A stretch of 64,000 bases of DNA. Origin: Piscirickettsiaceae bacterium (lineage in GTDB: Bacteria; Pseudomonadota; Gammaproteobacteria; Nitrosococcales; Methylophagaceae). Below the pieces are notes generated by a model that was not told the origin of the DNA, made no database searches, and worked only from the letters and a program-made list of their open reading frames with translations. The position numbers and the translations under genes were made by a program. Within the stretch, counting starts at the first letter, position 1, and each line of letters opens with the position of its first letter. This document shows, piece after piece, positions 5,938 to 53,953 of the stretch. The DNA lies in the NCBI GenBank assembly GCA_024685975.1, contig JAIBDZ010000001.1:186001-250000 (forward strand). The letters run 5' to 3'.

Positions 5938-8900
5938 TTATCTGGTATTGGTGTAGCGGGCGAGGAGTGCGTCAGCAGGTAAAGGTTTATCGAAATAATA
6001 ACCTTGGCCAATATCACAGGCCATACTTTGTAGCGTGATCAGTTGTTCTTCATTTTCAATGCCTTCAGCGATGACGGTATATCCCAAACTATGGGACAAG
6101 GCTAAAATGGCTTTAGTGATTTGAAGATCATTATTGCTATGGGGAATGTCATCAATAAAAGATTTATCGATTTTGATAATATCTAATGGCAATGTTTTTA
6201 GGTAACTCATAGAGGAATAGCCTGTACCAAAATCATCGACTGAAATACGAAAACCAGTCTCTCTAAGTGATTGTAGAATATGTTTATTTTGTTCAGTATC
6301 AGCCATTAAATAGCGTTCGGTGATTTCGATTTCAATTTGGTTTGGGGAAATATCAAATTCAGCGATGATGTTTTTGAAGACCTCGTTGATATTAGGTTGA
6401 CTAAATTGTACGCTCGAGACATTAATCGCCATGCTATTGAGCTCAAACCCTTGTCGACGCCAGTCAGCAAGCTGTTGGCATGCTTCGCGAAAAACCCATT
6501 CTCCTATCTCGGTAATATGACCTGACTCTTCTGCGATAGGAATAAATTCCGCTGGTGAGACAAACCCCCATTGTGGGTGATGCCAACGGAGTAAAGCTTC
6601 AACACCAACAATATGTTGTGTTTCTAAATCAATTTGCGGTTGAAAATTAAGGCTGAGTTGCGCTTTGCTAATGGCTTTTGATAAAGCACGTTCAATGTTG
6701 ATACGTCGTTGGCTTTGTGCGGATAATTCTTTGGTGAAATAGCGATAGCGATCTTTATGTTGTTTAGCGGCATACATGGCACTATCGGCATGTTTTATTA
6801 GGGTTAAAGCGTCATCACTGTCGTCGGGATAAATAGCAATGCCAATACTAGCCGACAGTGTTTGGCTTTGTTCTTTAATGAGAATAGGCTGTTGAACTTC
6901 AGCGATGATCGACTGGGTAATGGCATCTACGGCGTCTAAATCTTGATTAATATCAAGAATCATTAAAAATTCATCGCCGCCTAAACGGGCAAGAATATCT
7001 GTAGCACGTAGACGGTTTTTTAATCTATCAGCAGTGAGTTTTAATACGTCATCCCCTGCGGCATGACCAAAGCTATCATTGATATGTTTAAAGCGATCTA
7101 AATCTAAAAATAAAATGGCTAATTTTTCTTGATGCTGATGTGCTTCATCAATTTTGCCTTGTAAGATCTCACTAATTCTTTTGCGGTTGGGTAATTCAGT
7201 CAAAAAGTCATGATCGGCATGGTGTTGTGCTTCTTCTTTCTGGGAGAGAAGTTGACGATTAATTTTAGCAAGCTCATTGTTTTTTAATGTTATTTCAGTT
7301 TTGTGCCTGACGACGCGGCGATGTCTGAAATAGAGCACGCTAAAGATTATTGTGAAGGCGATGCTGAGTTGCCATGCTAGCTTTTTATCAAATTTTTCTA
7401 CATATTTAATGGATGTCCAGCGCGTTAATATGTCACGTTTATCTGGCTCGCTAATACTTAAAACTGCTTGTTCAAAAATAGCGTGCAGAATGGGTTCATC
7501 ATTACGTGTTGCAACGCCTAACTGCCAATTAACACCTAGGTTGCCACCAATCTTCAAATCATCGTAATAATGCGTTTGAATGTCATGGCTTAAGGAATAG
7601 AGGTTATCAACCAGTCCGAACAAGTCTCCACGTTTGACTTTCTCTAGGCCAATATGACGTGTTGGTACCAGTTCAAAATTGATATTTGGGTTGGCATCTA
7701 TGATGGTGGCTGCAAGCGAGCAATTTTCTATCAGGCCAATTTTTTTATTGGCAATTTCAGTTAATTTAGAAACAAAAACGACATCTTGTTTAGTTGCTAA
7801 AACAACGGGTAAATCGAGATAAGGCGAAGTGTGGTTCATGAAAGACCGTTGAGGTTCTACGTTCATACTCATGATGAAAATATCACACTCTCTATTTTGG
7901 GCTGTCATTAGAGACTCATCCCAATTACGGGTGGGAACAACGGAAATAGGGATGGCAATTTTTTGCTGTAAAAGCGTGAGATAGTCTGCGCCAATACCAG
8001 TATATGAGCCTGATTGTAGATGTTCTATAGGTGCCCAGTCTGGATCAACACAGGCCTTAATCACTTTCTTTTGTTCTAAATATTGTGTTTGTTCTTTGGA
8101 TAAAGATAAAGCATGTTTATGTTGTTTTGCATTTGGCGTCATCCAACGTGTTGAAATAATGTGATGTTCATCAGTTGTGATGTGCTCGAGACCTTTTTGG
8201 ATGATATCTCTTAATATTGGCCAATCTTGGCGAGTGGCCATATACATTTTATTTAACCCCATATCGGAAGCAAAGGCTGGTTTTAGTCCCGTTATGTTTT
8301 GTTCTTTTTGTAGATAGCGAATCATGCCCGTATTTTCAAACATGGCATCAGCTTGTTTGGTAATAACGGCATCAATGGCTTCTAGTGGGGTGTTGACGAT
8401 TAATAGATGGATTTCAGGATACTGTGATTTGAGAAGATCAATGTGTGCATAATTCTTTGGGATTACTAATGTTTTATCATGAAGATCTGCCATATTATTG
8501 ATGGATTGGTTATCTTCATGTACAAAAATGTATTGTCTGATGACGAGATAGGGTTGGGTGTAATGTAAATAATGGCTACGATCTGCACTCCAAAAAATCA
8601 TGGGCAAAAGATCTATTTCTTTCTGTTGGATTTTAGTAATTAAGTCATGCCATTCGGTATCAATAACAATATTAAATTGAAGTCCAGTATGGTGCGATAA
8701 TAAATCTAAATAATCTTGGGAAAAACCAGTATGTTTACCGTCTTTGACAAAATCTAGTGGCGGCCAGTCTTGTTCACCACCCACTATGATGACGGGGTGC
8801 TGTTCAATAAATTCGCGCTCTTGATCTGTCCAGACGATGGTATTCGATGAAGGATCTGATGCAAAGACAAGTAGGCTTAAGCTGCTTAAAGCCACTAATA

Positions 8901-8952
8901 GACTGAATTTAAGGAATGTAAGCACATGAGAGGGTATTGCTATTCTTTGCAT
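5938..8952 (-). CDS. Sensor with two solute-binding domains, GGDEF and EAL
   Basis: This 1004-residue transmembrane c-di-GMP enzyme has a signal peptide (cleavage near residue 31), then two consecutive periplasmic solute-binding domains of the family 3 type (about 40-270 and 285-515). One TM helix follows (about 528-547), then a short coil, a GGDEF domain and an EAL domain. The cyclase site GGDEF is intact and has an RxxD inhibitory site five residues upstream. The EAL domain keeps its key residues (EALLRW, NVSSVQF, EITE, DDFGTGYS, KIDKSF, AEGIENEEQ), so both activities look possible. By analogy with BvgS-like sensors the two lobes should bind small ligands such as amino acids. The direction of the output cannot be predicted. 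Confidence 0.92.
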   Translation of the reverse strand: MQRIAIPSHVLTFLKFSLLVALSSLSLLVFASDPSSNTIVWTDQEREFIEQHPVIIVGGEQDWPPLDFVKDGKHTGFSQDYLDLLSHHTGLQFNIVIDTEWHDLITKIQQKEIDLLPMIFWSADRSHYLHYTQPYLVIRQYIFVHEDNQSINNMADLHDKTLVIPKNYAHIDLLKSQYPEIHLLIVNTPLEAIDAVITKQADAMFENTGMIRYLQKEQNITGLKPAFASDMGLNKMYMATRQDWPILRDIIQKGLEHITTDEHHIISTRWMTPNAKQHKHALSLSKEQTQYLEQKKVIKACVDPDWAPIEHLQSGSYTGIGADYLTLLQQKIAIPISVVPTRNWDESLMTAQNRECDIFIMSMNVEPQRSFMNHTSPYLDLPVVLATKQDVVFVSKLTEIANKKIGLIENCSLAATIIDANPNINFELVPTRHIGLEKVKRGDLFGLVDNLYSLSHDIQTHYYDDLKIGGNLGVNWQLGVATRNDEPILHAIFEQAVLSISEPDKRDILTRWTSIKYVEKFDKKLAWQLSIAFTIIFSVLYFRHRRVVRHKTEITLKNNELAKINRQLLSQKEEAQHHADHDFLTELPNRKRISEILQGKIDEAHQHQEKLAILFLDLDRFKHINDSFGHAAGDDVLKLTADRLKNRLRATDILARLGGDEFLMILDINQDLDAVDAITQSIIAEVQQPILIKEQSQTLSASIGIAIYPDDSDDALTLIKHADSAMYAAKQHKDRYRYFTKELSAQSQRRINIERALSKAISKAQLSLNFQPQIDLETQHIVGVEALLRWHHPQWGFVSPAEFIPIAEESGHITEIGEWVFREACQQLADWRRQGFELNSMAINVSSVQFSQPNINEVFKNIIAEFDISPNQIEIEITERYLMADTEQNKHILQSLRETGFRISVDDFGTGYSSMSYLKTLPLDIIKIDKSFIDDIPHSNNDLQITKAILALSHSLGYTVIAEGIENEEQLITLQSMACDIGQGYYFDKPLPADALLARYTNTR

Positions 8953-9077
8953 AGGGTAGAGGTCCGATACTGACTAGCAGTTTGACGTCTATTCTAGTCC
9001 TTTCTGTCTTAGTTTTTGACGTATTTACGGTATGATGTCACACTTTAACAGGTTACCTTCAAGGTTGAGGGGTAGGC

Positions 9078-9497
9078 GTGGATACAAAACAAGTTCCTTT
9101 TGCTGCACATAATAAGGTTCAGATCGATGCCAATGATGGCGTTTTTTTACCTGATGAAACACATTTGAAAAACCATTTGGCCGGTGTTCATGCTGGAGCA
9201 CAGTTTTTATTAGCGGAAAGTGCGAGTGGTTATTATCTGATGACGCAATTCCCACAGTTTTCTGGTCGTCTTGTGCCTTTATTGCGACAGGCTACAATTA
9301 AGTATTGTCAGCAAGCCGTGGGGGAACTGTCATCTCGGGTTATCGTTGATGACGAGAATGTTGAAAAATATATTTCGGCATTAACCTCGCGGGGAAGGGC
9401 CGTTATTGATGTAGACGTAGAGGTATTAGACGAGGCTGGAGACGTGACTTGTCACGCCTCATTTAGGTGGTTTGTGCAAATACAGCCTGCCAATTAA
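9078..9497 (+). CDS. Hotdog-fold protein, DUF4442/thioesterase-like
   Basis: The GTG start at 9078 is preceded by GAGGGG about 8 bases upstream. The 139-residue product reads as a single hotdog domain: an N-terminal segment with NHLAGVHAGAQFLLAE (the helix that packs in the hotdog) and then long strands ending in FRWFVQIQ. Proteins of this type (DUF4442, PaaI- and YiiD-like) are acyl-CoA thioesterases or acyl-binding proteins, but catalytic residues vary. I see no decisive acid/base pair, so substrate and activity stay open. The gene ends tail-to-tail with the last paralogue of the next array, sharing a TTAA. Confidence 0.65.
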   Translation: MDTKQVPFAAHNKVQIDANDGVFLPDETHLKNHLAGVHAGAQFLLAESASGYYLMTQFPQFSGRLVPLLRQATIKYCQQAVGELSSRVIVDDENVEKYISALTSRGRAVIDVDVEVLDEAGDVTCHASFRWFVQIQPAN

Positions 9498-9910
9498 TAG
9501 TTCATATGAGAAAGCTGGCGCTGATAACTAAAATGAGTTATTGCATAGTCACTCAGCCAAGTTAACTCCATGTCTTGGTTGTTTAATGCTTTGGCTTTGG
9601 CGTGATAATAAGCAAACATAAACATTTCATCTGCGTAATGTAGCCATCTTTCTGCTCTGGTTTCAACGATGAGGGCTTCTTTTTTGAACAGCTCTTTAAA
9701 TACAGCATCGATAATGCGCTCAAAGCTAGATTCATTGATGCGATGATTGATCGCAAACCCTCGGCAGATACCGACGATAGATCCCGTGATGACATGACTT
9801 TTTTGCATGGCAGCGGGCAAGTTGCCTAACTCGTCCTGAACGGCCTGAAAGCAATGTGTAAAAGCGCGGATTAAATACCGTTTGTGTCGACTATTTTTAA
9901 AACTGAGCAT
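9494..9910 (-). CDS. Tandem paralogue 4 of an unrecognised family
   Basis: This is the last gene of a four-gene array. From the ATG at 9910, 7 bases after the preceding stop, it encodes 138 residues: a basic MLSFKNSRHKR start, then F-x-x-C-F...ELGNLPAAMQ, then ITGSIVGICRGFA, a central I-x-D-A-V-F-K-E-L-F motif, W-L-x-x-A-D-E-x-F-M and a closing WLSDYAITHF. It has no signal peptide or membrane segment, so it is probably cytosolic and largely helical. It is the most diverged copy, and the ribosome-binding site is weak, so translation may be coupled to the upstream copy. I do not recognise the family. Confidence 0.7.
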   Translation of the reverse strand: MLSFKNSRHKRYLIRAFTHCFQAVQDELGNLPAAMQKSHVITGSIVGICRGFAINHRINESSFERIIDAVFKELFKKEALIVETRAERWLHYADEMFMFAYYHAKAKALNNQDMELTWLSDYAITHFSYQRQLSHMNY

Positions 9911-42799: not shown

Positions 42800-44452
42800 C
42801 TAATGAGAGGGTGCGGTTGATTGCAGACACTTTGTCCTCTTTGCTTGTATAAGCCCCCAACCAAAATAGTTGTCATAAGCTGTTTTACCTAAATCTCGTG
42901 CATCAGCTTTCATCATATCGTAGATGTCTGTTCTAGATAAGGTCGGTTCTTTAGCAAGGTAAGTGGCTGCAAGAGCAACGGCATATGGAGAAGCGTAAGA
43001 CGTCCCTGAGCGGTACTTTCCTGCGCCTCTCTCGCTAATTGTCCATATATCAACGCCAGGTGCAGCAAAGTCGATATAACTGCCTTTATTGGCATGTTGA
43101 TAGAGTCTTTGTGCTGCATCAACGGCAGTGATGGCGAAGACATTGGGTAATGCTGCAGGGTATGAGTGCTGCTTTATCAAATTGTTATTGCCAACGGCAG
43201 CAAAAAAAAGCATCTTTTTTCGGTTGGCGAAAGCAAGCACTTTTTCTAAAATCACATTATTTTCTTTTCCTGCTAATGAGATATTGACTAACCTGACTTG
43301 TTTATCTAATAACCAATTAATAGAGCGCACTATATTAACGGCTGTTGCCAATGATTGTTGTTCTTCACGACGTAATGTAACGGCAGACAAAAGGTGTACA
43401 TTTTTTAATAATCTGTGGTCTTGTTGTGCTGTTTGTTGGCCGACCAATATGCCAGCGATGGCTGTTGCATGTTGCGTATCTGGAAGATTTTCTCCATTTA
43501 GGAAAGATTGAATTGTGATGTTCTGAGTGATGAGAGCAGGATGGTTGATATTAGGTAAGCCATCAATTAAGCCGATTGAGACAGAGTGATTTTCATTTTT
43601 TTCTGGGCATGAATGAGTTGGCCATTTGATCATTTCTTCTGCGTATTGTCGAGGTTGTGTCGCAGCATAGTAATGATGATTGAAATCGAAAATGACGTCT
43701 GAAAAAGAGGTTTTTAGATGCCTTATTGTCTCTGATATGTTTTCCTCATCGCTGTGAAAGACCAGTAAGTCATACTCTAAATGGTTGAGGGCATGGTTTT
43801 CTATCAATTTTAGGCTAAATTTAGTTGTTGCCTTTTGTATCACTTTTTGGGATTGCGAAACAGGGGAAAAGGCGAGAATCTGATTTTTTTCTCGCTGTAG
43901 AGTGAATTTTGCTTGTAAATTAGAGGAAGTCGGACATATTTGAAATTTAAGTAACTCTTCGTTATGTGTTTGTAATGGCCGAGGTGGAATGAGTTGAATT
44001 GTATAATGATGGCCGGCGGTGAAGACGTACTGCTCTGATAGTTTAAATGCAATTTGGTTTGAGCTGAGACTGATAGGTGTTATGGGTAAGGTTATATTAT
44101 CCGTCTGAATTTTAAATTGATGTGCTTGCAAGCTGTGTAGTTGTGTGCCGGTAAAGGTCACAATATTGCCAAGTTGGACACATCGTTGTTGTGGAGGGAA
44201 AAACTGCGCTTTTGGTTTTTTCTTTAAGCTAATGGGGGTGTCAAACGATCGTGTCGGTGTGGTTGTTCGTTGATTCGGTTGCTGTTGATTACTGTGGGTT
44301 GTCTCGTCGTTATTATGGTTGCTTTGATGTTGCTCCTTTTTTGTCAGTGTTGTGCTTTTTGACGAGGGATCTTGGGAGTAATTATTTGCATTGACATTAG
44401 TTGAAGCATAAACACATAAAGCCAGTAATATCACTATACGATAAATAGCCAT
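42800..44452 (-). CDS. Exported subtilisin-like (S8) serine protease
   Basis: The 550-residue protein has a signal peptide (about 1-22), a Gln/Asn/Thr-rich low-complexity linker (about 25-75), a beta domain resembling IPT/TIG (about 90-175), a possible prodomain-like segment (about 222-265) and a subtilase domain (about 288-540). The catalytic residues are all visible: Asp297 in GLIDG, His328 in QHATAIAG, Asn422 in AAVGN and Ser485 in GTSYASP. An active periplasmic or surface protease is therefore likely. It is the last gene of the sigma/anti-sigma unit and starts three bases after the anti-sigma stop. Cleavage of the anti-sigma factor or of the locus's secreted proteins is an inferred role. 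Confidence 0.88.
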   Translation of the reverse strand: MAIYRIVILLALCVYASTNVNANNYSQDPSSKSTTLTKKEQHQSNHNNDETTHSNQQQPNQRTTTPTRSFDTPISLKKKPKAQFFPPQQRCVQLGNIVTFTGTQLHSLQAHQFKIQTDNITLPITPISLSSNQIAFKLSEQYVFTAGHHYTIQLIPPRPLQTHNEELLKFQICPTSSNLQAKFTLQREKNQILAFSPVSQSQKVIQKATTKFSLKLIENHALNHLEYDLLVFHSDEENISETIRHLKTSFSDVIFDFNHHYYAATQPRQYAEEMIKWPTHSCPEKNENHSVSIGLIDGLPNINHPALITQNITIQSFLNGENLPDTQHATAIAGILVGQQTAQQDHRLLKNVHLLSAVTLRREEQQSLATAVNIVRSINWLLDKQVRLVNISLAGKENNVILEKVLAFANRKKMLFFAAVGNNNLIKQHSYPAALPNVFAITAVDAAQRLYQHANKGSYIDFAAPGVDIWTISERGAGKYRSGTSYASPYAVALAATYLAKEPTLSRTDIYDMMKADARDLGKTAYDNYFGWGLIQAKRTKCLQSTAPSH

Positions 44453-44455
44453 GGT

Positions 44456-45037
44456 TTAATCCATCTGAATTGATTCAAATATATCGGTTCTAGACTTTAT
44501 TTTTTCTAAGGTGGCTTTGGGTGCATGTGTAAGGCGAAGCTGATAAATCCCTAATGCTGAAGGCCCATTAATGATGCTAATACGATATTGGGTTAATACT
44601 TCTCGAAGCTGTTGTTCTGTAATGTCAGGAGAAAATGTGACAGAGAGTGTAAGACCTGCCGGTTGGTTTATGGTTTGATCGCCTGCAGCTTGGTAGTCCT
44701 CTGTAGGCATGAGTGTCGTGATAGATTGTACGACTAACAATAAACTGGCGGCGATAGCAGTAAATCTCCAGCCATTACTCATAGACTTTTGAGCGATGAC
44801 TTTGTTTTCTTTGTCTATACTGCGTTGTAGCCGTTTGAAGCCTATTTCACCTGGTGAAGTCGATACCGGTTGTTGTTTCGTTTTTTTTTGTATACCAGCG
44901 AGAAAATTCAGCTCTTGTTGTAGCTCTTCACTTTCTTGCAAAGCTTGTTCAACTAACATTATTTCATGCTGTTCTAATGTACCGTTTAGGTAAAAAGGTA
45001 ACAGCAGTTCTATGTCGTTGCGGTTGGTCGTATTCAT
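44456..45037 (-). CDS. Putative one-TM anti-sigma factor
   Basis: The 193-residue protein has a cytosolic N-terminal helical region whose LLLPFYLNGTLEQHE...VEQAL...EL pattern follows the anti-sigma (zf-HC2-like) fold without the zinc Cys/His. One TM helix follows (about 92-110), then a short periplasmic domain (about 125-193). That domain reads as strand-helix-strand-helix (QQLREVLTQYRISIINGPSA, then YQLRL) and resembles the inhibitor/prodomain fold that covers subtilases. The start overlaps the ECF sigma stop by ATGA and the S8 protease follows after three bases. Pairing with the sigma factor is strongly supported by context; the prodomain resemblance is my reading. Confidence 0.75.
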   Translation of the reverse strand: MNTTNRNDIELLLPFYLNGTLEQHEIMLVEQALQESEELQQELNFLAGIQKKTKQQPVSTSPGEIGFKRLQRSIDKENKVIAQKSMSNGWRFTAIAASLLLVVQSITTLMPTEDYQAAGDQTINQPAGLTLSVTFSPDITEQQLREVLTQYRISIINGPSALGIYQLRLTHAPKATLEKIKSRTDIFESIQMD

Positions 45038-45612
45038 GAGCCAGCCAGTTTAAATAGGCGAGTTAGACAGCGTTTCATGGCTTGTTTAGCATGAAACATA
45101 CGTGTTTTAACGGTATTTTCTGGACAGTCAACAACAATAGCAATGTCTTTATAGGACATTTCTTCAAAAAAAGTTAGCTCCATCACGCTGCGGTGTGCTG
45201 GTTTTAATGTTTCTAGACAATAGTGAATGTCTTTATTATTTTGTGCGTCAATTAAGTGTGAAATACTGTCTGGGCTAGTGTCAGTCACGTGATTGAGTTT
45301 ATCATCACTTATTTGCTCGGGTCGTTTTTTTCTTAGTTTATCAATGGTTTTATAGTGAGCGATACTAAATAACCAGGTTGATACCTTCGATTGCCCTTTA
45401 TACCTGTCAGCTTGTTTCCACACATCAAGAAATACTTCGTTGAGAATGTCTGCGGCTTCAAATGGATCGGGTAGTTTTGTTTGAATAAACCGATATAATC
45501 GCGACTCGAAACGATGATAAAACTGCTCGAAAGCCGTTTCATCTTGTGAGGCGATACTGTTGAGTAGCGCCTTCAACTCAGTTTCATTGTCATGATTGAT
45601 CGAGGTTGTCAT
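45034..45612 (-). CDS. ECF-type RNA polymerase sigma factor
   Basis: This 192-residue sigma-70 family protein has only regions 2 and 4. Region 2 (about 25-95) contains FEQFYHRFESRLYRFIQ, DILNEVFLDVWKQA and STWLFSIAHYKTIDKLR. Region 4 (about 125-180) contains LKPAHRSVMELTFFEEMSYKDIA and the recognition helix ENTVKTRMFHAKQAMKR. It is translationally coupled on both sides (ATGA overlaps with the fibronectin-like gene upstream and the anti-sigma gene downstream). Three matching TGAACC-N16-CGACT sites in this locus are its probable targets, including one about 1.3 kb upstream that would drive its own gene. Confidence 0.93.
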   Translation of the reverse strand: MTTSINHDNETELKALLNSIASQDETAFEQFYHRFESRLYRFIQTKLPDPFEAADILNEVFLDVWKQADRYKGQSKVSTWLFSIAHYKTIDKLRKKRPEQISDDKLNHVTDTSPDSISHLIDAQNNKDIHYCLETLKPAHRSVMELTFFEEMSYKDIAIVVDCPENTVKTRMFHAKQAMKRCLTRLFKLAGS

Positions 45613-46799
45613 TTAGGTACAGTAAGGTGGTGTATGGGTGAGTTTGCAATCAGGTTTCCTTGTTGGTCAAATGCACGTACCCGCCAGCTGTATTCATAAT
45701 TAGGCAGGAGCCAATCTCGGGAGAAGTCTGACAATGTAAGTTGTTGGTATTGCGCTGTGATGAGTTTGCCAGAAATAGGCACGGTGTCACCTTTATTAAA
45801 AATAGCGACTTGGTAGGCATGTGCATTTTCGACAGGCTTCCATGAGAATACGGTTGAGTTTGATAGCGGTGCTCTATTGGGTGGGCTCAGGGTTTCGATG
45901 GATGCCGTTTCACTGAGGCTATTTCTTGTTTTATCTAAAACAAAATAACGTAATATCGGTGTTTCAACGCCACCAATATCTTGTTGGACTGCAAAAGCTA
46001 ATAAGTAAAGCCCTGTTTGCTGGCTTGGGAGTGGGGGGCTAATAATCCGTGTACGACCTTCACCTGAGCTGACTAAGTTTTTTTGCACGACTTGTAGGAT
46101 ACGGCCACTTGATTGTCCTAAACTGGCTGAGGGATCAATTAAGCGCCATTCACCTTTCAGCACACCGCTACTGCGAAAAGATAAGTCGACAATGGCACGT
46201 AATGATTCTCCTTGATGAATAACATCAGTACGCGCTTGGTTGTCAAAGGATAAATCTATACGTCGAATAGTCAGGTTGAGGTTATTATTTTGACCTGATG
46301 CAACACGTATCTGGCTCGTGACGGGGGGCGTTTGTTGCTGGTCATCAAAAGCTCTAATGATTTGCACACTGCCAGAAGGACTATTGGCAATGCGTCTGCT
46401 GAGTGCCGCGCTGATCGTTAATGTTTCCCTAAATTGTAAAGTCTCTACGCCACTGACTGGGATATTTGATGAACGACTTAATTGATTGCCTAAGGTGGCA
46501 ACAGTTGTACCTTGTATTTGCAACAATGCGGTCGGAGATGAGGTGACGGCAGTACCTGCAGTAATGTTTGTACGAAATACTTGCCATGTAATATTTATAT
46601 TAGCGTTACCAATAGCGGGGACACTGACGGTGCTTGGTGTACCTGTCACATTCGTAATATTGGCGTAAGCCGCGGATGAATAAAGACCAACAGCAATAAT
46701 TAAGACAAGACTAATATTGACCAGAAAGTGGCACACTAATTCTGAAAATGGCAAAAATTTGGTAACTTGTTTCATTGTCTGTAAATGCGGTATTTCCAT
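45609..46799 (-). CDS. Secreted protein with fibronectin III-like C-terminal domain
   Basis: The 396-residue protein has an unusually long N-terminal export signal (cleavage expected near residue 46 after SSAAYA). The body is all-beta. The last 100 residues (SPPNRAPLSNSTVFSWKPVENAHAYQV... to YSWRVRAFDQQGN) have the Trp/Tyr pattern of a fibronectin III sandwich. GGAGA six bases ahead of 46799 supports the start, which makes the gene overlap the preceding barrel gene by 89 bases; ATG 46775 is an alternative. It is translationally coupled to the sigma gene. It may be a surface partner of the barrel or a ligand-binding sensor; no function is known. Confidence 0.75.
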   Translation of the reverse strand: MEIPHLQTMKQVTKFLPFSELVCHFLVNISLVLIIAVGLYSSAAYANITNVTGTPSTVSVPAIGNANINITWQVFRTNITAGTAVTSSPTALLQIQGTTVATLGNQLSRSSNIPVSGVETLQFRETLTISAALSRRIANSPSGSVQIIRAFDDQQQTPPVTSQIRVASGQNNNLNLTIRRIDLSFDNQARTDVIHQGESLRAIVDLSFRSSGVLKGEWRLIDPSASLGQSSGRILQVVQKNLVSSGEGRTRIISPPLPSQQTGLYLLAFAVQQDIGGVETPILRYFVLDKTRNSLSETASIETLSPPNRAPLSNSTVFSWKPVENAHAYQVAIFNKGDTVPISGKLITAQYQQLTLSDFSRDWLLPNYEYSWRVRAFDQQGNLIANSPIHHLTVPK

Positions 46800-48717
46800 T
46801 TGTCTTCTCCAAAGAGCCTCTGAGTGCTAGGCTAAATCCCGGTCTATTGTATGTTGCTTGGCTAAATGTCCAACCAACTTCAGTATTAATAATATGTCTA
46901 TCTGGTAAGTCGGTATCACCTGAAGATTGGTTCAAATTATAATTAATGTTTAGGTTTAATTTCTCTTGAATCACTTCTGAAATTAGGCCTATGCCGATTT
47001 GGGTATCGTAGCTGTTATCGCCAGTCCCTTTATTGTTGAAGGTGGCGTATTGTAAATTACCGTTTAACAATAAGTTATGACGAGCTTGCCAACCGAAACC
47101 TAAAGAGGTGAGCTCATTTGACGTGTCATTGTTTGTATTTGCATCATCATTGAAGCTACCGTTGGTATATGAGAGCGTCCAATAGAGTGCTTCATAGTTT
47201 GACCCGCCGCTGACAGTATAGGAGCTAGAGCGACTATCAGTATCAGTGCCAATATAACCGTTGGGTGTTTTATCCCGTTCTAATAATGAAGTGAAACCTG
47301 AGAAGTTGATATAAGGAGAGCCTAACCAAGTATTTGGGCCTTGGGATAAAGTGAATATGTAACTGCTATTCCATAAAAATTGTTGTAATTTATCAGTGGG
47401 TAAGCCAATTAAGTCTTCGACGTTGTTTGTTTCTCGACTGAGTTGCAAGTCGACCGTTAAATTGTCCCAATAAAGGTTGCTATATAATGTGGCAGCATCT
47501 CTATCGCTGGCTAAGCCTTGATTGGCTAAGCTTTGGAAAAAAGTATCAATTCGTTCGTATTTGCTGCCTACGGTCAGATTGAAATTTTTATCGAGAAGGA
47601 TTTGGTTAAACGGGGTCGCTTCTAACAGTATAGAGAAAGCATTACTTTCATCATCGGGTGCCAGACCTTCATGGCCGTCAAGGTCAAATCGTGAGCGGGC
47701 ATAATGGCTTTGGAATTTTAATTGATTATTTAACCATTGTTTTTCGGCTGTCACTCCCCAACCTGATCCGGTTGCTGTTTCGTCGGAAGTACTCACGCCA
47801 ATCCCTTCCCGTGTTCTTTCGCCATCATAATACATCGTCATTAATTTCAAGGCATCTTGGTCTGATGAAAATGGTTTGATGGATGTTGAAAAGCCGTTAA
47901 TTCGGTTATTTTGATCGCTGATACCTGAAACATTGTCAGTGCCGAGCGTATTTTCAGTATTAAAGGCAAAGGCGCTGGCAGCAACACGATCTTGCTTACT
48001 TGCAATATGGGCTGATAGCCCTCGGCGGTAAAACTGGGAAATCAATAAAGAGTCTAATCCCGTGTCATGATGTCCTGCGGTAAACCGAGTGTTGATTAGC
48101 TCTCCGTAATGGTTCGCCGATAGGGTATATTCTCCGATGTCAAAAGGCGCACTTGTTTGCCTCAATGACTTTTCGCTTTGTAATAAATAATTGCCTTGGG
48201 CATCAATAACCCAGTTTTCCCCTTGAGCTTGACCATAAACCTGCCCCCCACCTGATGCAATGGAATGGTGTGGTGCATTTGAACCGATGTGTCGACTTTT
48301 TAGGCGGTTACTGAATTCGGTGAGTGTTTCTGCTGTGAATGAGGCGGAGGTTAACCATGCTTCTGCTTTTGCAGTTTGGTTCTTTTCCCCTTGAGTTATA
48401 AAAGACCAACTGGCTTTTTCAATGCTGTTACCTAGGTTATCGAGGGCAATGAGCCTTAACGTATGCTGTCCTGCTGCGAGGGCTTCAATAGGGCGGTAAT
48501 TAAGTCTGTTATTGTGTGTTATGACTAAATCTGTGATATCGATATTATCGAGTTCAAGTGCAAAATGTTCGACGACACCTTCTGGCAAGATGATAACCAG
48601 ATTATCTTGGTTTGTAGAGGGTGGATAAAACTGTGGGTTCCACTCGGCTAGCGCCGAATGGAACGGAAAAATAAAGGTAAAAATAACGGCTAAATAACGG
48701 AAATTATTGTCATTCAT
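46711..48717 (-). CDS. Outer-membrane beta-barrel with N-terminal Ig-like domain
   Basis: The product has 668 residues from the ATG at 48717 (AGG seven bases upstream). A signal peptide (MNDNNFRYLAVIFTFIFPFHSALA) is followed by an Ig-like segment (about 30-120, with GQHTLRLIALDNLGN). Some 480 residues of alternating strands and Asn/Asp/Gly-rich turns follow, closing in IFAIFRISVPLSGQY. Strand count and the aromatic last strand suggest a large outer-membrane barrel; no TonB box or plug is evident. It may anchor or export the locus's secreted proteins. The family is not recognised. Confidence 0.7.
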   Translation of the reverse strand: MNDNNFRYLAVIFTFIFPFHSALAEWNPQFYPPSTNQDNLVIILPEGVVEHFALELDNIDITDLVITHNNRLNYRPIEALAAGQHTLRLIALDNLGNSIEKASWSFITQGEKNQTAKAEAWLTSASFTAETLTEFSNRLKSRHIGSNAPHHSIASGGGQVYGQAQGENWVIDAQGNYLLQSEKSLRQTSAPFDIGEYTLSANHYGELINTRFTAGHHDTGLDSLLISQFYRRGLSAHIASKQDRVAASAFAFNTENTLGTDNVSGISDQNNRINGFSTSIKPFSSDQDALKLMTMYYDGERTREGIGVSTSDETATGSGWGVTAEKQWLNNQLKFQSHYARSRFDLDGHEGLAPDDESNAFSILLEATPFNQILLDKNFNLTVGSKYERIDTFFQSLANQGLASDRDAATLYSNLYWDNLTVDLQLSRETNNVEDLIGLPTDKLQQFLWNSSYIFTLSQGPNTWLGSPYINFSGFTSLLERDKTPNGYIGTDTDSRSSSYTVSGGSNYEALYWTLSYTNGSFNDDANTNNDTSNELTSLGFGWQARHNLLLNGNLQYATFNNKGTGDNSYDTQIGIGLISEVIQEKLNLNINYNLNQSSGDTDLPDRHIINTEVGWTFSQATYNRPGFSLALRGSLEKTNGNTAFTDNETSYQIFAIFRISVPLSGQY
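46907..46934 (-). promoter_or_regulatory. Candidate ECF promoter P3 (sigma/anti-sigma/protease unit)
   Basis: Reading the minus strand, TGAACC (46934-46929), 16 bases, then CGACTT (46912-46907). It is identical in both elements and spacing to P2. It lies inside the 3' end of the barrel gene, about 108 bases ahead of the fibronectin-like gene whose transcript would carry the sigma gene. It could be a chance match within coding sequence, but the fixed spacing makes that unlikely. Confidence 0.55.
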
Positions 48718-48772
48718 AGCATGCCTGATGATGTTAATAAATAGGTTAGATAGAACATTATTTTTGTTGTGA

Positions 48773-50686
48773 TCATGGACCACTTGGGTTGGTGATAGAG
48801 TCGAGATCATCTTGTAACCTTTCTAGAGGGGCGACGCCCTGATCATGCATTGTGTCGTCATCAAAGCCTGGTTGGACTACTGAATCTGGCCCAACAGTAT
48901 TGGTTGGGGCTTGCCATAAAGGGGGCGCTGACTCTGTGTCATCATCTTCACTGACTCCTGGACCTGATCCACAACCATTTTGACCCGGTTGCGGTTCCAT
49001 TACTTGACCTCCTTGGCCATCTCCGCAGTCTGGTGGAGTTATACTTTCAGTTTCACGTTGTCCTGGTTGGGTTTTGCTATCAACATAATCTTTACCATCG
49101 GATCGATAACTACGAGTCGGATCAGTGCCCATTTCATGACCCGTTTGTCCTTCAGCAGCACTGTCATCAGTGTCTTCATCAGTCGTGCCTGTATCACTGT
49201 CACTGCTATCACTCGTGTCTTCATTGCTATCGTCACTATCATTTGAGTCATCAGAGCTATTTGAATCATCATCGTTATCATCATCAGAGTTATCGTTGTC
49301 ATTATTATTGTTAGAACTTTCTTTTGAGTCACTACTGTTGTTTGATGAGTTATCGTCATTATTATTGGAACCGGGAGAGGGCGTTTCGCTTCTGACAGTA
49401 CCATCAGCGTTAAAGACCGTTGTTTGTTGGCCTTTTCGTCCACCAGAGACATATGTGCCATCGGCATATAAAACACCACCTTTATCGTCTGGCGTCCCCA
49501 TACTGCCATCAGGTCCTCTTTGAGGTATTTGCTGACCATTAGGTAGTGTGAACGTAGATTCACCCGTGCTTGATGTTGAGGTCACTACTTTGCCATAAAA
49601 CCCACCAGCAGCTGAAGACTGTGTTTTCGGTGCGATATCAATGGCAGAAGGTGCAGCAGAGCCCGTTGTAACTGGCCCATTATTATTGGAACCGGGAGAA
49701 GGCGTTGTGCTTCTGACAGTACCATCAGCATTAAAGACCGTTGTTTGTTGGCCTTTTCGTCCGCCAGAGACATATGTACCATCGGCATATAAAACGCCAC
49801 CTTTATCATCTGGCGTCCCCATACTGCCATCAGGTCCTCTTTGAGGTATTTGCTGACCATTAGGTAGTGTGAACGTAGATTCACCCGTGCTTGATGTTGA
49901 GGTCACTACTTTGCCATAAAAACCACCAGCAGCTGAAGACTGTGTTTTTGGTGCGATACTCGGTTCTAATTTTGTAGTGGCAGTTCCATTAACACTATTG
50001 ATAGTGGGACCTGATTCTCCACCTTCTTTGCTAGGGTGAATAAAAACCGTACTGTCTTGGGTGACGGGGCCGCCGACACTATTGATAGTGGGACCAGATT
50101 CTCCACCTTCTTTGCTAGGGTGAATAAAAACCGTACTGTCTTGGGTGACGGGGCCGCCGACACTATTGATAGTGGGACCAGATTCTCCGCCTTCTTTGCT
50201 AGGGTGAATGAAGACCGTACTGTCTTGGGTGACGGGACCGCCGACACTATTGATAGTCGGTCCCGATCGAGAGGGTGATCCTGAGGTCGTTGGAGTGTGT
50301 GTTGTATTGCCTTTAGTAAAGCCGGCCTGTGGCGTGTTTGTATGAGAAGTTGGCTGTGTTGGTCTGCCTGGGCTAGAGATCGTTGGTGATTTAATTTGGG
50401 ATGCTGATTGGCTTGGTTTGATGAATTGCGGTGCATTCATCTGGGCAGGCTGTGTTTTTATCGGCTCGAGCTTTCGAGGGAGTAGTTGAGACTGTGATTT
50501 TAACTGGTTGCCTTTTGTAATAGCAGCTGGAGGGCTGAGATAGGGCTCTATTTCTTTACTTTTGATCTCTGCTTGTGATTTGAGCTTGGCATCTTGTTTT
50601 AATTGTAAGTTATCGGCTTGAAGGGGTGTGATAGGCAAGCTGACTAACGTTGTATAAACAAATGTGGCTAATAAGGTCTGTTTCAT
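48773..50686 (-). CDS. Secreted repeat protein with Asp/Ser/Asn-rich tract
   Basis: The product has 637 residues from the ATG at 50686 (AGGGAAAG upstream). In order: a signal peptide (cleavage near residue 24), a Gln/Pro/Ser/Lys-rich region, three tandem 28-residue units (GPTINSVGGPVTQDSTVFIH..., with a fourth partial), two near-identical copies of about 92 residues (FTLPNGQQIPQRGPDGSMG ... YADGTYVSGG ... VFNADGTVRS), and a long Asp/Ser/Asn tract. The C-terminal part has two cysteines and Gly/Pro-rich spacers. The acidic tract could bind calcium or act as a flexible stalk, as in adhesins. No homologous family is recognised. Confidence 0.72.
   Translation of the reverse strand: MKQTLLATFVYTTLVSLPITPLQADNLQLKQDAKLKSQAEIKSKEIEPYLSPPAAITKGNQLKSQSQLLPRKLEPIKTQPAQMNAPQFIKPSQSASQIKSPTISSPGRPTQPTSHTNTPQAGFTKGNTTHTPTTSGSPSRSGPTINSVGGPVTQDSTVFIHPSKEGGESGPTINSVGGPVTQDSTVFIHPSKEGGESGPTINSVGGPVTQDSTVFIHPSKEGGESGPTINSVNGTATTKLEPSIAPKTQSSAAGGFYGKVVTSTSSTGESTFTLPNGQQIPQRGPDGSMGTPDDKGGVLYADGTYVSGGRKGQQTTVFNADGTVRSTTPSPGSNNNGPVTTGSAAPSAIDIAPKTQSSAAGGFYGKVVTSTSSTGESTFTLPNGQQIPQRGPDGSMGTPDDKGGVLYADGTYVSGGRKGQQTTVFNADGTVRSETPSPGSNNNDDNSSNNSSDSKESSNNNNDNDNSDDDNDDDSNSSDDSNDSDDSNEDTSDSSDSDTGTTDEDTDDSAAEGQTGHEMGTDPTRSYRSDGKDYVDSKTQPGQRETESITPPDCGDGQGGQVMEPQPGQNGCGSGPGVSEDDDTESAPPLWQAPTNTVGPDSVVQPGFDDDTMHDQGVAPLERLQDDLDSITNPSGP
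49160..49360 (-). repeat. Low-complexity Asp/Ser/Asn coding tract
   Basis: About 65 codons read almost only Ser, Asn, Asp, Glu and Thr. On the plus strand this appears as runs of TCA/TCG/ATT/ATC trinucleotides. It is prone to slippage and gives spurious open frames on the other strand. Confidence 0.85.
49357..49637 (-). repeat. 281-bp direct repeat, copy 2 in gene direction
   Basis: This segment matches 49678-49958 at an offset of 321 bases with about ten differences in 281 (about 96 percent identical). Most differences are third-position changes. It encodes the 92-residue module of the repeat protein. Confidence 0.93.
49678..49958 (-). repeat. 281-bp direct repeat, copy 1 in gene direction
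   Basis: This is the partner of the repeat at 49357-49637. The near-identity at DNA level shows a recent duplication or continuing gene conversion, so copy number may vary between strains. Confidence 0.93.
49992..50256 (-). repeat. 84-bp tandem repeat, three units plus a partial
   Basis: ACACTATTGATAGT recurs at 49992, 50076, 50160 and 50244, an exact 84-base period, and encodes the 28-residue units beginning GPTINSVGG. The units are nearly identical in DNA. This is in-frame coding repeat, not a CRISPR: there are no unique spacers. Confidence 0.93.
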
Positions 50687-50703
50687 AATACTTTCCCTGA
50701 ACA

Positions 50704-50717
50704 ACGTTCTTGAACGT
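50704..50717. repeat. 14-bp palindrome ahead of the repeat-protein gene
   Basis: ACGTTC-TT-GAACGT lies 17 bases upstream of the ATG at 50686, just before the ribosome-binding site. The size and position fit a dimeric-repressor operator or a leader hairpin. No regulator can be named. Confidence 0.45.
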
Positions 50718-50769
50718 AATAGTTGTACTAAATTAATTGTTAACTAGACTAATACAGCTTGTTTTAATG

Positions 50770-52833
50770 CTAGTGTTTAAGCATTATTTCCCGTTGTTGT
50801 GCTGGCTTTATATGATTATTAGGCGCTGTCGTTGGCTTTTGTTGTATGTTTAGCTGCATGTTATCTTGGCAACGGCCGAGTACATTGTATTTCTTGACTA
50901 AGTGGTTATTATTTTTATTTGTTTCTGTAACACTTATATCAGTGTCAACATCTACACGCAAGGTATTCATGCCTGTTTTTAAGCCAACAACACGATAGTA
51001 ATTCTCTAACTCTCCTGACTTTAATACAACATTTTGATGTTGATTAATGAGTACTCTGTCTTGTGTCACTTGTATTTTGAATGGTGAACTGGTCGCTTGT
51101 CCTTTATTTTCGATGCTATAGCTGAAATCAAAAAGACACCTTCCATTCTCGAAGCGAATCGCATCCGTGGCATTGAGTGTCATCATGCTTGATTTATTGA
51201 AGCTATTACCTGCAATGTTAAGCGCTTTCACCGTAATGTCAGCTTTATTATTCGATTGTAAGTTCATGGTTGTGCTACTCGTGTGTGTTTTCTTCGCTGG
51301 CACCATTATTTTTGTTTTGGGCGAGGGAGTCATTTTTTGTGCATCGCTTATTGATAAGGATAAGTTTTGATCACTTTGATCGAGAACTTCGCATTGCAAC
51401 CGGACATGACGTTGTGCTGTGCTCACAGCTAAAGTGTATTCTTCTGTTGTCGGAGCGACTAGCCCGCCTGTTGTTGGTGTGTTTTTAGCAGGCAACGTTG
51501 AGACATTAAAGCTAAAACGAATATCTTTGAAACGTAATGCATTTCCACCTGTGTTGCCTTGGGCTATGTGACTCGCACCTTGTTGTGTATTTGTATTGAG
51601 ATCCCAATCAATCGTTCTATCAGCAATAAATTGTTGTTGGCTGTTCTCTGCTAAATCAAAGGTAAAAGCATTTGATAAATAGTGGTCACCGACAAAAATG
51701 GCTTTGCCTCGACGAGCACCATGCGTTTTTATTGTACCTACCAATCTAACTTTAACTGGGCAGGATTGATTACCTACTTGAACGCGCTCTTGTATCAGAT
51801 AATAGGCGCTAGCTTCTGGGCCGAGGTTAGTGGTTAGCTCGTTAGGGCTAGGCTTTGAACAGGCTAATTCATACAGCTTTTTCTTGGTGTGAAATTCTGG
51901 GCTGACACCGATTAACTGAAGTGTCCCGTGTTCGTCTTGGCCTTCTAAGTTTTGAATATCAAATTGATGCGAAAACATTGCTGTTTTTGAATGATCTGTT
52001 GTGACTTCATAGACTTGGCTGTCTTTAACAATGCCTGTGTGACCATCTTGATGGCGATATTTAAATTTAACTGGCACATTGGGCTTGAGGGTTTTAATCA
52101 CGCCAGATAGTGTGACATTACAAGCACCGCCCACTGTGCTTTGAGGTGATACTGTTAAACTTGAATCCGTCACAACATAAACGGTTTCTTCTGCTGCTAA
52201 GCCGACATTAGCATTATGTTGAGGGCCTTGCCATTTGTTACAGACGACGGTGACGAGGGGTGGTTGATATCCTTGGATAAAACTTTGGCCGAGATTAATA
52301 TTGGCGGTAAAGTCAACTTTGATCTCACCTTGGGCATAAAACTCGAGCACACGATCTTGGGAAAAGATTTGCTTATTAGTGTAGCCATTATTTTGTTTTA
52401 GCCTGTTCGCTAGACTATTACATTGCTGAATAAAAAAGGCACTATATGCGTCCTCAGGAATACTCATATCAGAAATTGTTTTATAGACGCTCTTTGGGCG
52501 GTTGAATGCTGAATAAGATTTAGTTTTACTGTGATCTTTAAACTCGATTTGAGCAAAAGAACTTTTGAGCTTTAGCCAGACTTCCCAACTTTTTACACGA
52601 GCCGTTGCACCACCATCAATATCTACTAAAACAGTAGGATGTAACGTTAATGCTAGTGGATGACCAGGGTTAACAATCGTGTATTGAGTACCATCACTTG
52701 CCACGTTATATGTTTGGGAATGTACTTGGGTGACTCTTGCTTGTGCACTTTCTTTCGCTGAACCATGTGAACTAACGACTAGCAATAAACATGAGAGGGT
52801 GGTCAACAACAAAAACTTAAAATGTTTAAACAT
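50770..52833 (-). CDS. Large secreted protein with C-terminal CARDB-like domain
   Basis: The product has 687 residues from the ATG at 52833, chosen because GAGGAA lies eight bases upstream and a signal peptide (MFKHFKFLLLTTLSCLLLVVSSHGSA) then starts the protein; the longer frame to 53049 would run through a promoter-like site. The body is beta-rich with eight scattered cysteines. The last 130 residues (FDFSYSIENKGQATSSPFKI ... GMNTLRVDVD ... ETNKNNNHLVKKY) follow the CARDB/APHP adhesion-module pattern. About eight residues after the signal peptide is VTQVHSQ, a motif shared with the next two upstream products. It is probably a surface or matrix protein. Confidence 0.75.
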   Translation of the reverse strand: MFKHFKFLLLTTLSCLLLVVSSHGSAKESAQARVTQVHSQTYNVASDGTQYTIVNPGHPLALTLHPTVLVDIDGGATARVKSWEVWLKLKSSFAQIEFKDHSKTKSYSAFNRPKSVYKTISDMSIPEDAYSAFFIQQCNSLANRLKQNNGYTNKQIFSQDRVLEFYAQGEIKVDFTANINLGQSFIQGYQPPLVTVVCNKWQGPQHNANVGLAAEETVYVVTDSSLTVSPQSTVGGACNVTLSGVIKTLKPNVPVKFKYRHQDGHTGIVKDSQVYEVTTDHSKTAMFSHQFDIQNLEGQDEHGTLQLIGVSPEFHTKKKLYELACSKPSPNELTTNLGPEASAYYLIQERVQVGNQSCPVKVRLVGTIKTHGARRGKAIFVGDHYLSNAFTFDLAENSQQQFIADRTIDWDLNTNTQQGASHIAQGNTGGNALRFKDIRFSFNVSTLPAKNTPTTGGLVAPTTEEYTLAVSTAQRHVRLQCEVLDQSDQNLSLSISDAQKMTPSPKTKIMVPAKKTHTSSTTMNLQSNNKADITVKALNIAGNSFNKSSMMTLNATDAIRFENGRCLFDFSYSIENKGQATSSPFKIQVTQDRVLINQHQNVVLKSGELENYYRVVGLKTGMNTLRVDVDTDISVTETNKNNNHLVKKYNVLGRCQDNMQLNIQQKPTTAPNNHIKPAQQREIMLKH

Positions 52834-52870
52834 GGTCAATTCCTCGTTTAATTTAACTGTGTTTCCAAGT

Positions 52871-52898
52871 AAGTCGTAGGTCACTTTCATTTGGTTCA
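52871..52898 (-). promoter_or_regulatory. Candidate ECF promoter P2 (CARDB-protein gene)
   Basis: On the minus strand, TGAACC (52898-52893), 16 bases, then CGACTT (52876-52871). It sits in the gap between the 146-residue gene and the ATG at 52833, leaving a leader of about 30 bases. The GAAC-containing -35 and CG-start -10 at 16-base spacing fit ECF promoters in general. Confidence 0.65.
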
Positions 52899-52969
52899 AT
52901 GTAAACTTATTGCGATGGCTTGAGATGCATTTACTGAGCTGTGAATATCTTGCAAACTCTAGCGTGATC

Positions 52970-53410
52970 TTAGCCCTCAGGAATGACCGTGTAATGGTAG
53001 TCACATTTGTACTGTACTCGGAATTTAACTTGTCCGCCATCAGGATCAATATTGGTTTTTTGAATTATCACTAACGGCTGTACAGTGGATGTCTTACCAT
53101 TAGGTTGACTTTGTTTGGGGCAAGTAATGGTCTGCGTGGTACAAACAAACTCATCAGTCCATTTCCCACTGTCTTTTGTGACAACTTTTTCTCCGGCCTT
53201 AGTAAACCCTTGAGCACAATTTGCATGAAAAGGAATTTGAAAAGTGGGTGTAAAATTAGGTTTGTGGCTTTGTGTTTGAACTTGGGTTGGGGTCACTTTT
53301 TGAGGTGCGTTCTCAGCGAAACTTGAACTGCTTATCATTAATGCCGCACTTATGAAAAATAAGCGAGGTAGTTTGAAATTGTTTTTTGAATTACGGGTAA
53401 ATAAGGACAT
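52970..53410 (-). CDS. Small secreted cysteine-containing protein
   Basis: The 146-residue protein starts at ATG 53410 with AGGAGA seven bases upstream. A signal peptide (about 1-32, ending SSSFA) is followed by TPTQVQTQ and a mature part with four cysteines (NCAQGF, FVCTTQ, TITCPKQ and YKCDYH), which could form two disulfides. It starts 36 bases after the end of the 126-residue gene, so the two are co-transcribed. The family is not recognised. Confidence 0.72.
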   Translation of the reverse strand: MSLFTRNSKNNFKLPRLFFISAALMISSSSFAENAPQKVTPTQVQTQSHKPNFTPTFQIPFHANCAQGFTKAGEKVVTKDSGKWTDEFVCTTQTITCPKQSQPNGKTSTVQPLVIIQKTNIDPDGGQVKFRVQYKCDYHYTVIPEG

Positions 53411-53446
53411 GATTGTTCTCCTACATATTGAATCGTGAAAAGGTAT

Positions 53447-53827
53447 TTATAATGTGCAAGAGCCTTCTGATGTGGCGCCTGTTTTGTGATCTCTAATACC
53501 ACTATGGAACGATCCCCCAACAGAAATACAATCTGAAATCATGTCGTTACATTCTGCTACAGTCCAACAATGTGCTGTTATATGACTGTCTTTAGGTTTG
53601 CCATTAGAGAAAGAATTGGATGCGCGGTGTGGGCTCGAGTTATTTTTAGTTTGATTCAATACACCTTGCAAGCTCGGTAGGTTTTTTTGAGAGTGGACTT
53701 GACTAGGGTTTATTTTCTTTAACATAGTATCGGCGAAAGTTGATGTGCTCATTATTAATGCTGTTGCCATCATTAATAGTGGAATGAGTTTGCTGATGTT
53801 TTTAGGGTGAACGGTTAGTAATGACAT
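53447..53827 (-). CDS. Small secreted cysteine-containing protein
   Basis: The 126-residue protein starts at ATG 53827, with AGGAAAA upstream. A signal peptide (about 1-32, ending STFA) is followed by NPSQVHSQ and a short mature region with four cysteines (HCWTVAEC, SDC and GSC). The leader and the post-cleavage motif resemble those of the next gene, suggesting a shared origin or shared processing, while the mature domains differ. It is the first gene of the locus, downstream of candidate ECF promoter P1. Confidence 0.72.
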   Translation of the reverse strand: MSLLTVHPKNISKLIPLLMMATALIMSTSTFADTMLKKINPSQVHSQKNLPSLQGVLNQTKNNSSPHRASNSFSNGKPKDSHITAHCWTVAECNDMISDCISVGGSFHSGIRDHKTGATSEGSCTL

Positions 53828-53873
53828 AGCAATTTTCCTAGTTATTATTAAATTTATGGGTGTTTCAGTTGTT

Positions 53874-53901
53874 GAGTCGAGATGAGTTCATTTTAGGTTC
53901 A
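53874..53901 (-). promoter_or_regulatory. Candidate ECF promoter P1 (start of secreted-protein locus)
   Basis: On the minus strand, TGAACC (53901-53896), 16 bases, then CGACTC (53879-53874). The leader to the ATG at 53827 would be about 40 bases. It matches P2 and P3 in both elements and spacing, differing only in the last base. Confidence 0.65.
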
Positions 53902-53953
53902 AAGTTTTTTAAGTTTTTATTTAAGAGCGGATGAGTGTTGAGCCTAAAATGAA
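53887..53953. repeat. Inverted repeat spanning the P1 -35 region
   Basis: TTCATTTTAGGTTCAA (53887-53902) is matched in inverse by TTGAGCCTAAAATGAA (53938-53953), 15 of 16 positions, with 35 bases between the arms. One arm covers the P1 -35 element, so it may be a regulator site or a duplicated sigma-recognition half. Confidence 0.6.

Follow-up and report, generated by a model that had tools for sequence, protein, structure and literature searches.

A conserved ECF sigma, anti-sigma and subtilase cassette with a promoter-like element before secreted-protein genes, and a predicted propeptide-like domain in its anti-sigma factor

Why would a bacterium encode an extracytoplasmic function (ECF) sigma factor, an anti-sigma factor and an exported subtilase in a single row with a set of secreted proteins? 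The question is raised by a locus of Piscirickettsiaceae bacterium assembly GCA_024685975.1 (1.62 Mb, 23 contigs, 68% complete), which lies in a stretch of 64,000 nucleotides of contig JAIBDZ010000001.1 (positions 186,001 to 250,000; hereafter the window, numbered from its first letter). Nine minus-strand open reading frames (ORFs), all found with their translations in the window, span 42800-53827, and the locus is flanked by nuo genes and fusA, both recognised from their translations alone. We found that five of the nine genes, encoding an outer-membrane protein (OMP), an fn3-like protein, the sigma factor, the anti-sigma factor and an S8 subtilase, form a conserved cassette, omp-fn3-sigma-anti-sigma-S8, in the same order at 15 loci of Gamma- and Alphaproteobacteria, and that one promoter-like element precedes secreted cargo genes, both linked and unlinked. 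We propose, with a probability of about 0.58, that the locus encodes an autoregulated ECF sigma system which both produces and monitors a group of secreted surface proteins, and in which the subtilase docks on a propeptide-like domain of the anti-sigma factor. The features of the locus are as follows, and compared loci and genomes are labelled L and G, respectively, with a number.

53876..53902, minus strand: predicted ECF promoter P1, TTGAACC-N16-CGAC, exact match, preceding the gene for Cys protein A
53447..53827, minus strand: small exported Cys-containing protein A, 126 residues (ORF)
52970..53410, minus strand: small exported Cys-containing protein B, 146 residues (ORF)
52873..52899, minus strand: predicted ECF promoter P2, exact match, preceding the CARDB gene
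50770..52833 (mechanical ORF from 53049), minus strand: exported CARDB protein with a Cys-stapled domain (CARDB E=8.6e-8)
48773..50686 (mechanical ORF from 50704), minus strand: exported protein with repeats and an acidic tract (ORF)
46711..48717 (mechanical ORF from 48810), minus strand: predicted 26-strand outer-membrane barrel (OMP) with an N-terminal Ig-like domain (AlphaFold model)
46909..46935, minus strand: possible internal ECF promoter P3 in the 3' end of omp, exact match, preceding fn3-sigma-anti-sigma-S8
45609..46799, minus strand: fn3-like exported protein, partner of the OMP (weak fn3 match, conserved gene order)
45034..45612, minus strand: ECF sigma factor (sigma-70 regions 2 and 4)
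44456..45037, minus strand: anti-sigma factor with an N-terminal anti-sigma domain, one transmembrane segment and a periplasmic subtilisin-propeptide-like C-terminal domain, ~residues 126-193 (family matches and model)
42800..44452, minus strand: exported S8 subtilase with an IPT/TIG-like N-terminal domain, a presumed prodomain of its own and the catalytic triad (PF00082)

An earlier note, made from the letters of the window alone, had described nine minus-strand genes with close spacing, and the ORF list agrees: the fn3 and sigma ORFs overlap by 4 bases, as do sigma and anti-sigma, and a 3-base gap separates anti-sigma from subtilase. The omp and fn3 ORFs share 89 bases. For the CARDB, repeat and OMP genes, the mechanically called ORFs look too long; the likely starts are ~52833, ~50686 and ~48717, because signal peptides, which we called by reading the sequence, begin there. 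Position 53901, given in the note as the end of the locus, lies at the edge of the promoter copy at 53876-53902. Scans for sigma-70-type promoters and terminators across the locus gave no excess over shuffles, so they do not set operon limits.

Are these genes kept together elsewhere? Using profiles built from four or five relatives, and reading the anti-sigma genes of L037 and L044 directly from the reading frames, we found complete cassettes at 13 distinct loci (the window, L006, L007, L008, L037, L038, L041, L044, L055, L057, L058, L059 and L060) and two more, L042 and L043, in which the subtilase is cut by a contig end. L054, L056, L061 and L065 are repeats of L006, L007, L038 and L044 and were not counted, and L057 and L059 are two strains of Kiloniella laminariae. 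The cassette occurs in some bacteria from the sea and from sediments, and carriers with a name include Kiloniella laminariae (Alphaproteobacteria), Methylophaga sp. OBS4 and a Sedimenticola metagenome-assembled genome. Since five of the nine genes keep their order in two classes, the block is more than chance. Co-occurrence of all nine genes in related genomes, the check that the earlier note had suggested, is found for these five only and fails for the Cys protein A, Cys protein B, CARDB and repeat genes.

Parts of the cassette lie at contig ends in L017, L040, L049, L062, L064 and L113, and in L045-L047 the OMP gene is at or close to one. The OMP-fn3 pair occurs without an adjoining sigma gene at six loci (L035, L036, L039, L063, L066 and L067); in L035 sigma is matched weakly (33 bits) ~6.5 kb from omp-fn3, and in L063 (5449-10896) omp and fn3 stand directly before S8 without sigma or anti-sigma. 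Given such loci, the pair may be a unit of its own. L009 has sigma-anti-sigma-S8 without omp-fn3, and L048 and L050-L053, chosen for weak OMP matches, have no cassette. The anti-sigma gene is present in 5/59 of the nearest genomes and in 3/29 within the genus, the window's own genome included. In a sample of 369 genomes of the class, the OMP profile matches 22 at E<=0.001 (15 of these below 1e-50) and the anti-sigma profile 57, many by the N-terminal domain alone. The cassette is accessory, as its patchy presence among the nearest genomes and in the class sample demonstrates. Horizontal spread seems likely. A scan of viral contigs for the anti-sigma factor yielded no relative.

The promoter-like element was derived from 44 hand-chosen upstream regions, those of cassette-adjacent genes and of an unlinked locus of G054. 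TGAAC or GAACC together with CGAC occurs at a single fixed spacing in 19 of the 44; in none of 20 mononucleotide shuffles does any pattern of this kind exceed 4. Exact copies of TTGAACC-N16-CGAC number three in the window's own assembly, all at this locus and on the locus strand, four in G014, all in its cassette locus, and four in G008, where the cassette locus has two and the other two lie elsewhere, within ORFs or across them. Across the 59 genomes, the 5 carriers have 42 copies vs 11 of the reversed pattern and the 54 others 43 vs 70 (Fisher p 5e-7), although the excess in the carriers arises partly by construction, their loci having supplied the motif. G042, which lay outside the derivation, has 18 copies vs 6 reversed. 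When one base (T) is added to the pattern, the genomes of the class sample with at least three copies are G042 (10), G054 (7), G134 (5), G000 (3) and G117 (3); G054, G134 and G000 carry the cassette, G042 its sigma half, and G117 only a weak OMP match.

The genes behind the element connect it with secretion. By a crude export-signal test, 38/53 carrier sites have an exported ORF within 200 bp downstream vs 1/25 non-carrier sites, and random positions in carrier loci have one in 333/2000 cases. These are 53 of the 67 known carrier sites, leaving out 3 of the own genome, 1 of G054, 1 of G408 and 9 of G409 (the second Kiloniella), and 25 of the 43 non-carrier sites, one per genome and some near-identical. 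The carrier count is made up of 9/18 in G042, 9/12 in G054, 6/7 in Kiloniella DSM 19542 and 14/16 in the others. With the derivation sites and the internal omp site removed, 22/35 precede an exported ORF (p 1.6e-6), and the G042 sites taken alone give p 7e-4. The genes that follow copies in Kiloniella laminariae include homologues of the window CARDB protein (E 2.4e-42) and of a 198-residue (1.1e-12) and a 248-residue (1.6e-50) protein of L006, and at the unlinked locus of G054 a homologue of the CARDB protein likewise follows a copy. The pattern suggests that the sigma factor recognises TTGAACC-N16-CGAC. The idea in the earlier note of a dedicated system in which an ECF/anti-sigma/subtilase set goes with secreted proteins is supported by the conserved cassette and by a common element before many secreted genes; the latter takes the place of part of the RNA-seq check that the note suggested. 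Its description of the locus as self-contained does not always hold, since in G042, G054 and Kiloniella the predicted regulon is dispersed.

The third copy, P3, lies inside omp, 109 bases ahead of the fn3 start. Its place reads TAT AAT TTG AAC C in 7/7 close loci (the window, L006, L007, L055, L057, L058 and L059), TTG being a minority leucine codon in those omp genes (8/72 to 15/57), and the -10 part is exact in 6/7, the window included. Among four remoter omp genes, that of L038 has TTA at this place, and the other three are without such a stretch by residue search; G134 has an exact copy of the element in the 3' end of omp. These features suggest that P3 would make fn3-sigma-anti-sigma-S8 autoregulated.

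The sigma factor (192 residues) matches PF04542 (region 2, E=2.8e-14) and PF08281 (region 4, E=1.2e-13), as expected of an ECF sigma factor. The subtilase matches PF00082 (E=1.2e-24), and in 16 aligned sequences D297 and S485 of the S8 triad are invariant and H328 nearly so, one sequence having undetermined residues there; at E<=1, S8 is matched in 16/16 relatives and TIG in 5/16. A second subtilase of this type is encoded in Methylophaga sp. OBS4 (L055:727-2286), ~7 kb off the cassette. The AlphaFold model of the OMP has a mean pLDDT (predicted local distance difference test) of 87, a pTM (predicted template modelling score) of 0.71 and, by our count, 26 barrel strands; the OMP profile has no match among PDB sequences. 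For the fn3-like protein, the fn3 match is below cut-off (E 0.018), a Rha78A Ig domain matches at E 0.0011, and the sole match of its profile among PDB sequences is a titin stretch (E 0.016). The OMP, the repeat protein and Cys proteins A and B have no Pfam/NCBIfam match above the curated cut-off.

What links the anti-sigma factor to the subtilase? Of 15 members of the anti-sigma family, 14 match zf-HC2 at E<=1, and the six of these that were compared with the Pfam cut-off are above it; the window member has no Pfam match, and NCBIfam anti-sigma models match it below cut-off. In the window (44900-45037) and close relatives, the anti-sigma domain is without the His/Cys zinc-ligand pattern seen in L009, L041, L043 and L064. 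The periplasmic domain has a beta-alpha-beta-beta-alpha-beta fold in the AlphaFold model, its 11 best VIA rows are all S8 propeptide regions or POIA1, and the best Foldseek E is 0.008. With moderate statistics, we predict that subtilisin propeptides and POIA1, an I9 inhibitor, have the folds most similar to it. By sequence, PF22148 is matched at E<=1 in 6/15 family members, the window member not among them, and in 4/12 remoter members. Comparison of the anti-sigma profile with an S8-prodomain profile gave a probability of 1.5% and E 0.033 with fewer sequences and, with remoter members added, 20% and E 0.0012, which is still weak; against PDB sequences the anti-sigma profile had nothing below E 0.34. 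The last residue of the window protein corresponds to residue 70 of the 76 in POIA1, short of the inhibitory C-terminal tail, and the L057 and L059 proteins have longer C-terminal tails. At nine remoter loci, as at all 15 with the cassette, the anti-sigma gene lies directly before the subtilase. Other remoter members have different neighbours: L100:7868-10478 has an ECF sigma factor and a propeptide-like anti-sigma factor before a caspase-like protease (recognised from sequence), not a subtilase; L098, L099 and L103 (~7870-9517) have sigma/anti-sigma pairs with a propeptide-like domain and no recognised protease beside them, all three anti-sigma proteins ending in tryptophan; and no recognised protease adjoins L110.

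How, then, might the system work? In the proposed autoregulated system, the membrane anti-sigma factor would hold the sigma factor in the resting state. The subtilase, while periplasmic, would dock on the anti-sigma factor via the propeptide-like domain and be the first to cut it. The usual intramembrane proteases and those of the cytoplasm would then set the sigma factor free, and acting at TTGAACC-N16-CGAC it would raise its own operon as well as the cargo proteins. At the surface, cargo and subtilase would be carried or anchored by the fn3-like protein together with the 26-strand barrel; were export blocked or incomplete, the subtilase would stay periplasmic and the system would be on. The direction of the signal, whether the subtilase activates or protects the anti-sigma factor, is the least certain step. 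We give even odds to the anti-sigma factor with a subtilisin-propeptide fold being a sensor: by mimicking a propeptide it would tell the cell how much of a dedicated secreted protease there is, or how far that protease has matured, and a regulon of secreted surface proteins would be set to match. The hypothesis of the earlier note that the system senses its own surface assembly becomes testable because the anti-sigma domain is propeptide-like. If true, a genetically encoded lock and key would couple protease secretion directly to transcription, a novel means by which a cell monitors its exports. The defined promoter element marks a group of secreted proteins whose function is unknown. How envelope sigma systems sense what is exported can be put to direct test, through the anti-sigma/subtilase contact and an element simple enough for a reporter.

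Several observations qualify this account. Some carriers have a single copy of the element, which is in the locus in G075 and off the cassette contig in G104, G187, G226 and G385, and G218, G236 and G298 carry the cassette with zero copies of the longer pattern in the class sample; the element is therefore not uniform among carriers. Protein conservation accounts for part of the sequence conservation of P3, which makes the P3 evidence suggestive only. Most prodomain matches of the anti-sigma family are below the Pfam cut-off, PF22148 exceeding it in one of the 15 members and in none of the remoter ones. The pattern one base shorter occurs in G000 4 times vs 6 reversed, three of the 4 copies being in the locus. 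A relative of Cys protein B in Alphaproteobacteria bacterium OFTM68 (L058:6458-6570) has an upstream variant with CGTC for CGAC, so exact-pattern counts may miss real sites.

It is possible, and in our view unlikely, that docking has the opposite sign. The mature subtilase would then bind the propeptide-like domain and shield the anti-sigma factor, the system being off while the subtilase is periplasmic and on once it is gone (depletion sensing), with another protease as the site-1 cutter. Propeptide folds usually bind their protease tightly, and the window domain, in stopping short of the active-site tail, fits docking without cleavage. A bound partner can also protect an anti-sigma factor from proteolysis in cell-surface signalling, according to the title of PMC11637429. 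However, a conserved active protease would be unneeded for binding alone. We also doubt that the domain is a relic, or a ferredoxin-like domain of generic kind, that makes no contact with the subtilase, which would only mature cargo, with housekeeping proteases cutting the anti-sigma factor. The moderate fold Z, the weak sequence similarity and the remoter members that adjoin a caspase-like protease or no recognised protease would fit such a domain, but subtilase propeptides head the fold lists, and the placement directly before the subtilase recurs at the cassette loci and at the nine remoter ones. That an ordinary operon of unrelated envelope genes has come by chance to lie beside a stress-type ECF pair is very improbable, since the poor conservation of the four upstream genes is outweighed by five-gene synteny in two classes and by a common element before cargo genes, unlinked ones included.

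ECF/anti-sigma pairs and subtilases are known; what is new here is the promoter element before secreted-protein genes and the propeptide-like anti-sigma domain. The proposed system resembles RpoE-RseA-DegS (PMC8103513) in its ECF sigma factor, its anti-sigma factor with one transmembrane segment and a periplasmic serine protease as the proposed site-1 cutter, but that protease is an operon-encoded S8 subtilase and not a DegS/PDZ protease, the anti-sigma factor has a propeptide-like domain, and the predicted regulon consists of secreted proteins. As in FecA-FecR-FecI cell-surface signalling, an OMP, an anti-sigma factor and an ECF sigma factor share a single locus; unlike there, the barrel has 26 strands and an N-terminal Ig-like domain and is accompanied by a subtilase and an fn3-like partner, and none of the nine proteins matches a TonB-dependent receptor, signalling domain or FecR-type anti-sigma factor in Pfam/NCBIfam at E<=1. 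The likeness to subtilisin propeptides (the fervidolysin N-prodomain PF22148) and to I9 inhibitors such as POIA1 is one of predicted fold and mostly weak family matches, whereas here the domain is within a membrane anti-sigma factor, in trans to the subtilase, and in the window protein seemingly without the C-terminal inhibitory tail. In ECF54 (PMC8999054), a subtilase is likewise encoded beside the ECF sigma factor and control without an anti-sigma factor is proposed, while here each of the 15 cassette loci has an anti-sigma gene between those for sigma and subtilase. The MtrB barrel differs, with 8% identity to the OMP and no cytochrome recognised among the nine genes. Our literature searches returned no description of this combination among the matches listed; the main ECF classification (Nucleic Acids Research 2021) was outside that scope, so it may already list an ECF group with this neighbourhood.

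The four upstream secreted genes (Cys protein A, Cys protein B, CARDB and repeat) are lineage-specific, with other exported proteins replacing them elsewhere: the genes before omp vary between loci, yet look exported. The N-terminal 53 residues of Cys protein A are similar to those of Cys protein B (E 3.6e-9). Among the 59 genomes, Cys protein B has a match in its own genome only, and its OFTM68 relative (E 1.8e-7) adjoins the cassette there. The window CARDB protein is matched in its own genome, G014 and G054 only, that is, in 3/5 carriers vs 0/54 others (hypergeometric p 3e-4); the G014 match spans the CARDB part only, and the G054 relative is on a different contig from the cassette, adjoining a repeat-protein relative (E 5e-6). 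A search with the Cys-stapled domain joined CARDB-type proteins with one exported protein each of L006 and G054, which entered only at E 0.011 and 0.014. A family of ~440 residues, FamA, lies close to omp in L006, L041, L055, L057, L058 and L059, and profile comparison gave no significant link between it and the window CARDB protein. We considered FamA as a co-occurring marker and rejected it as no general one, for it is matched in 3/369 genomes: strongly in G134, beside the OMP gene, and weakly in G042 and in G179, the last matched by neither the OMP nor the anti-sigma profile. In L007:91-6410, eight genes for small exported proteins stand in a row by the cassette; several are paralogues, and some lie behind the promoter-like element.

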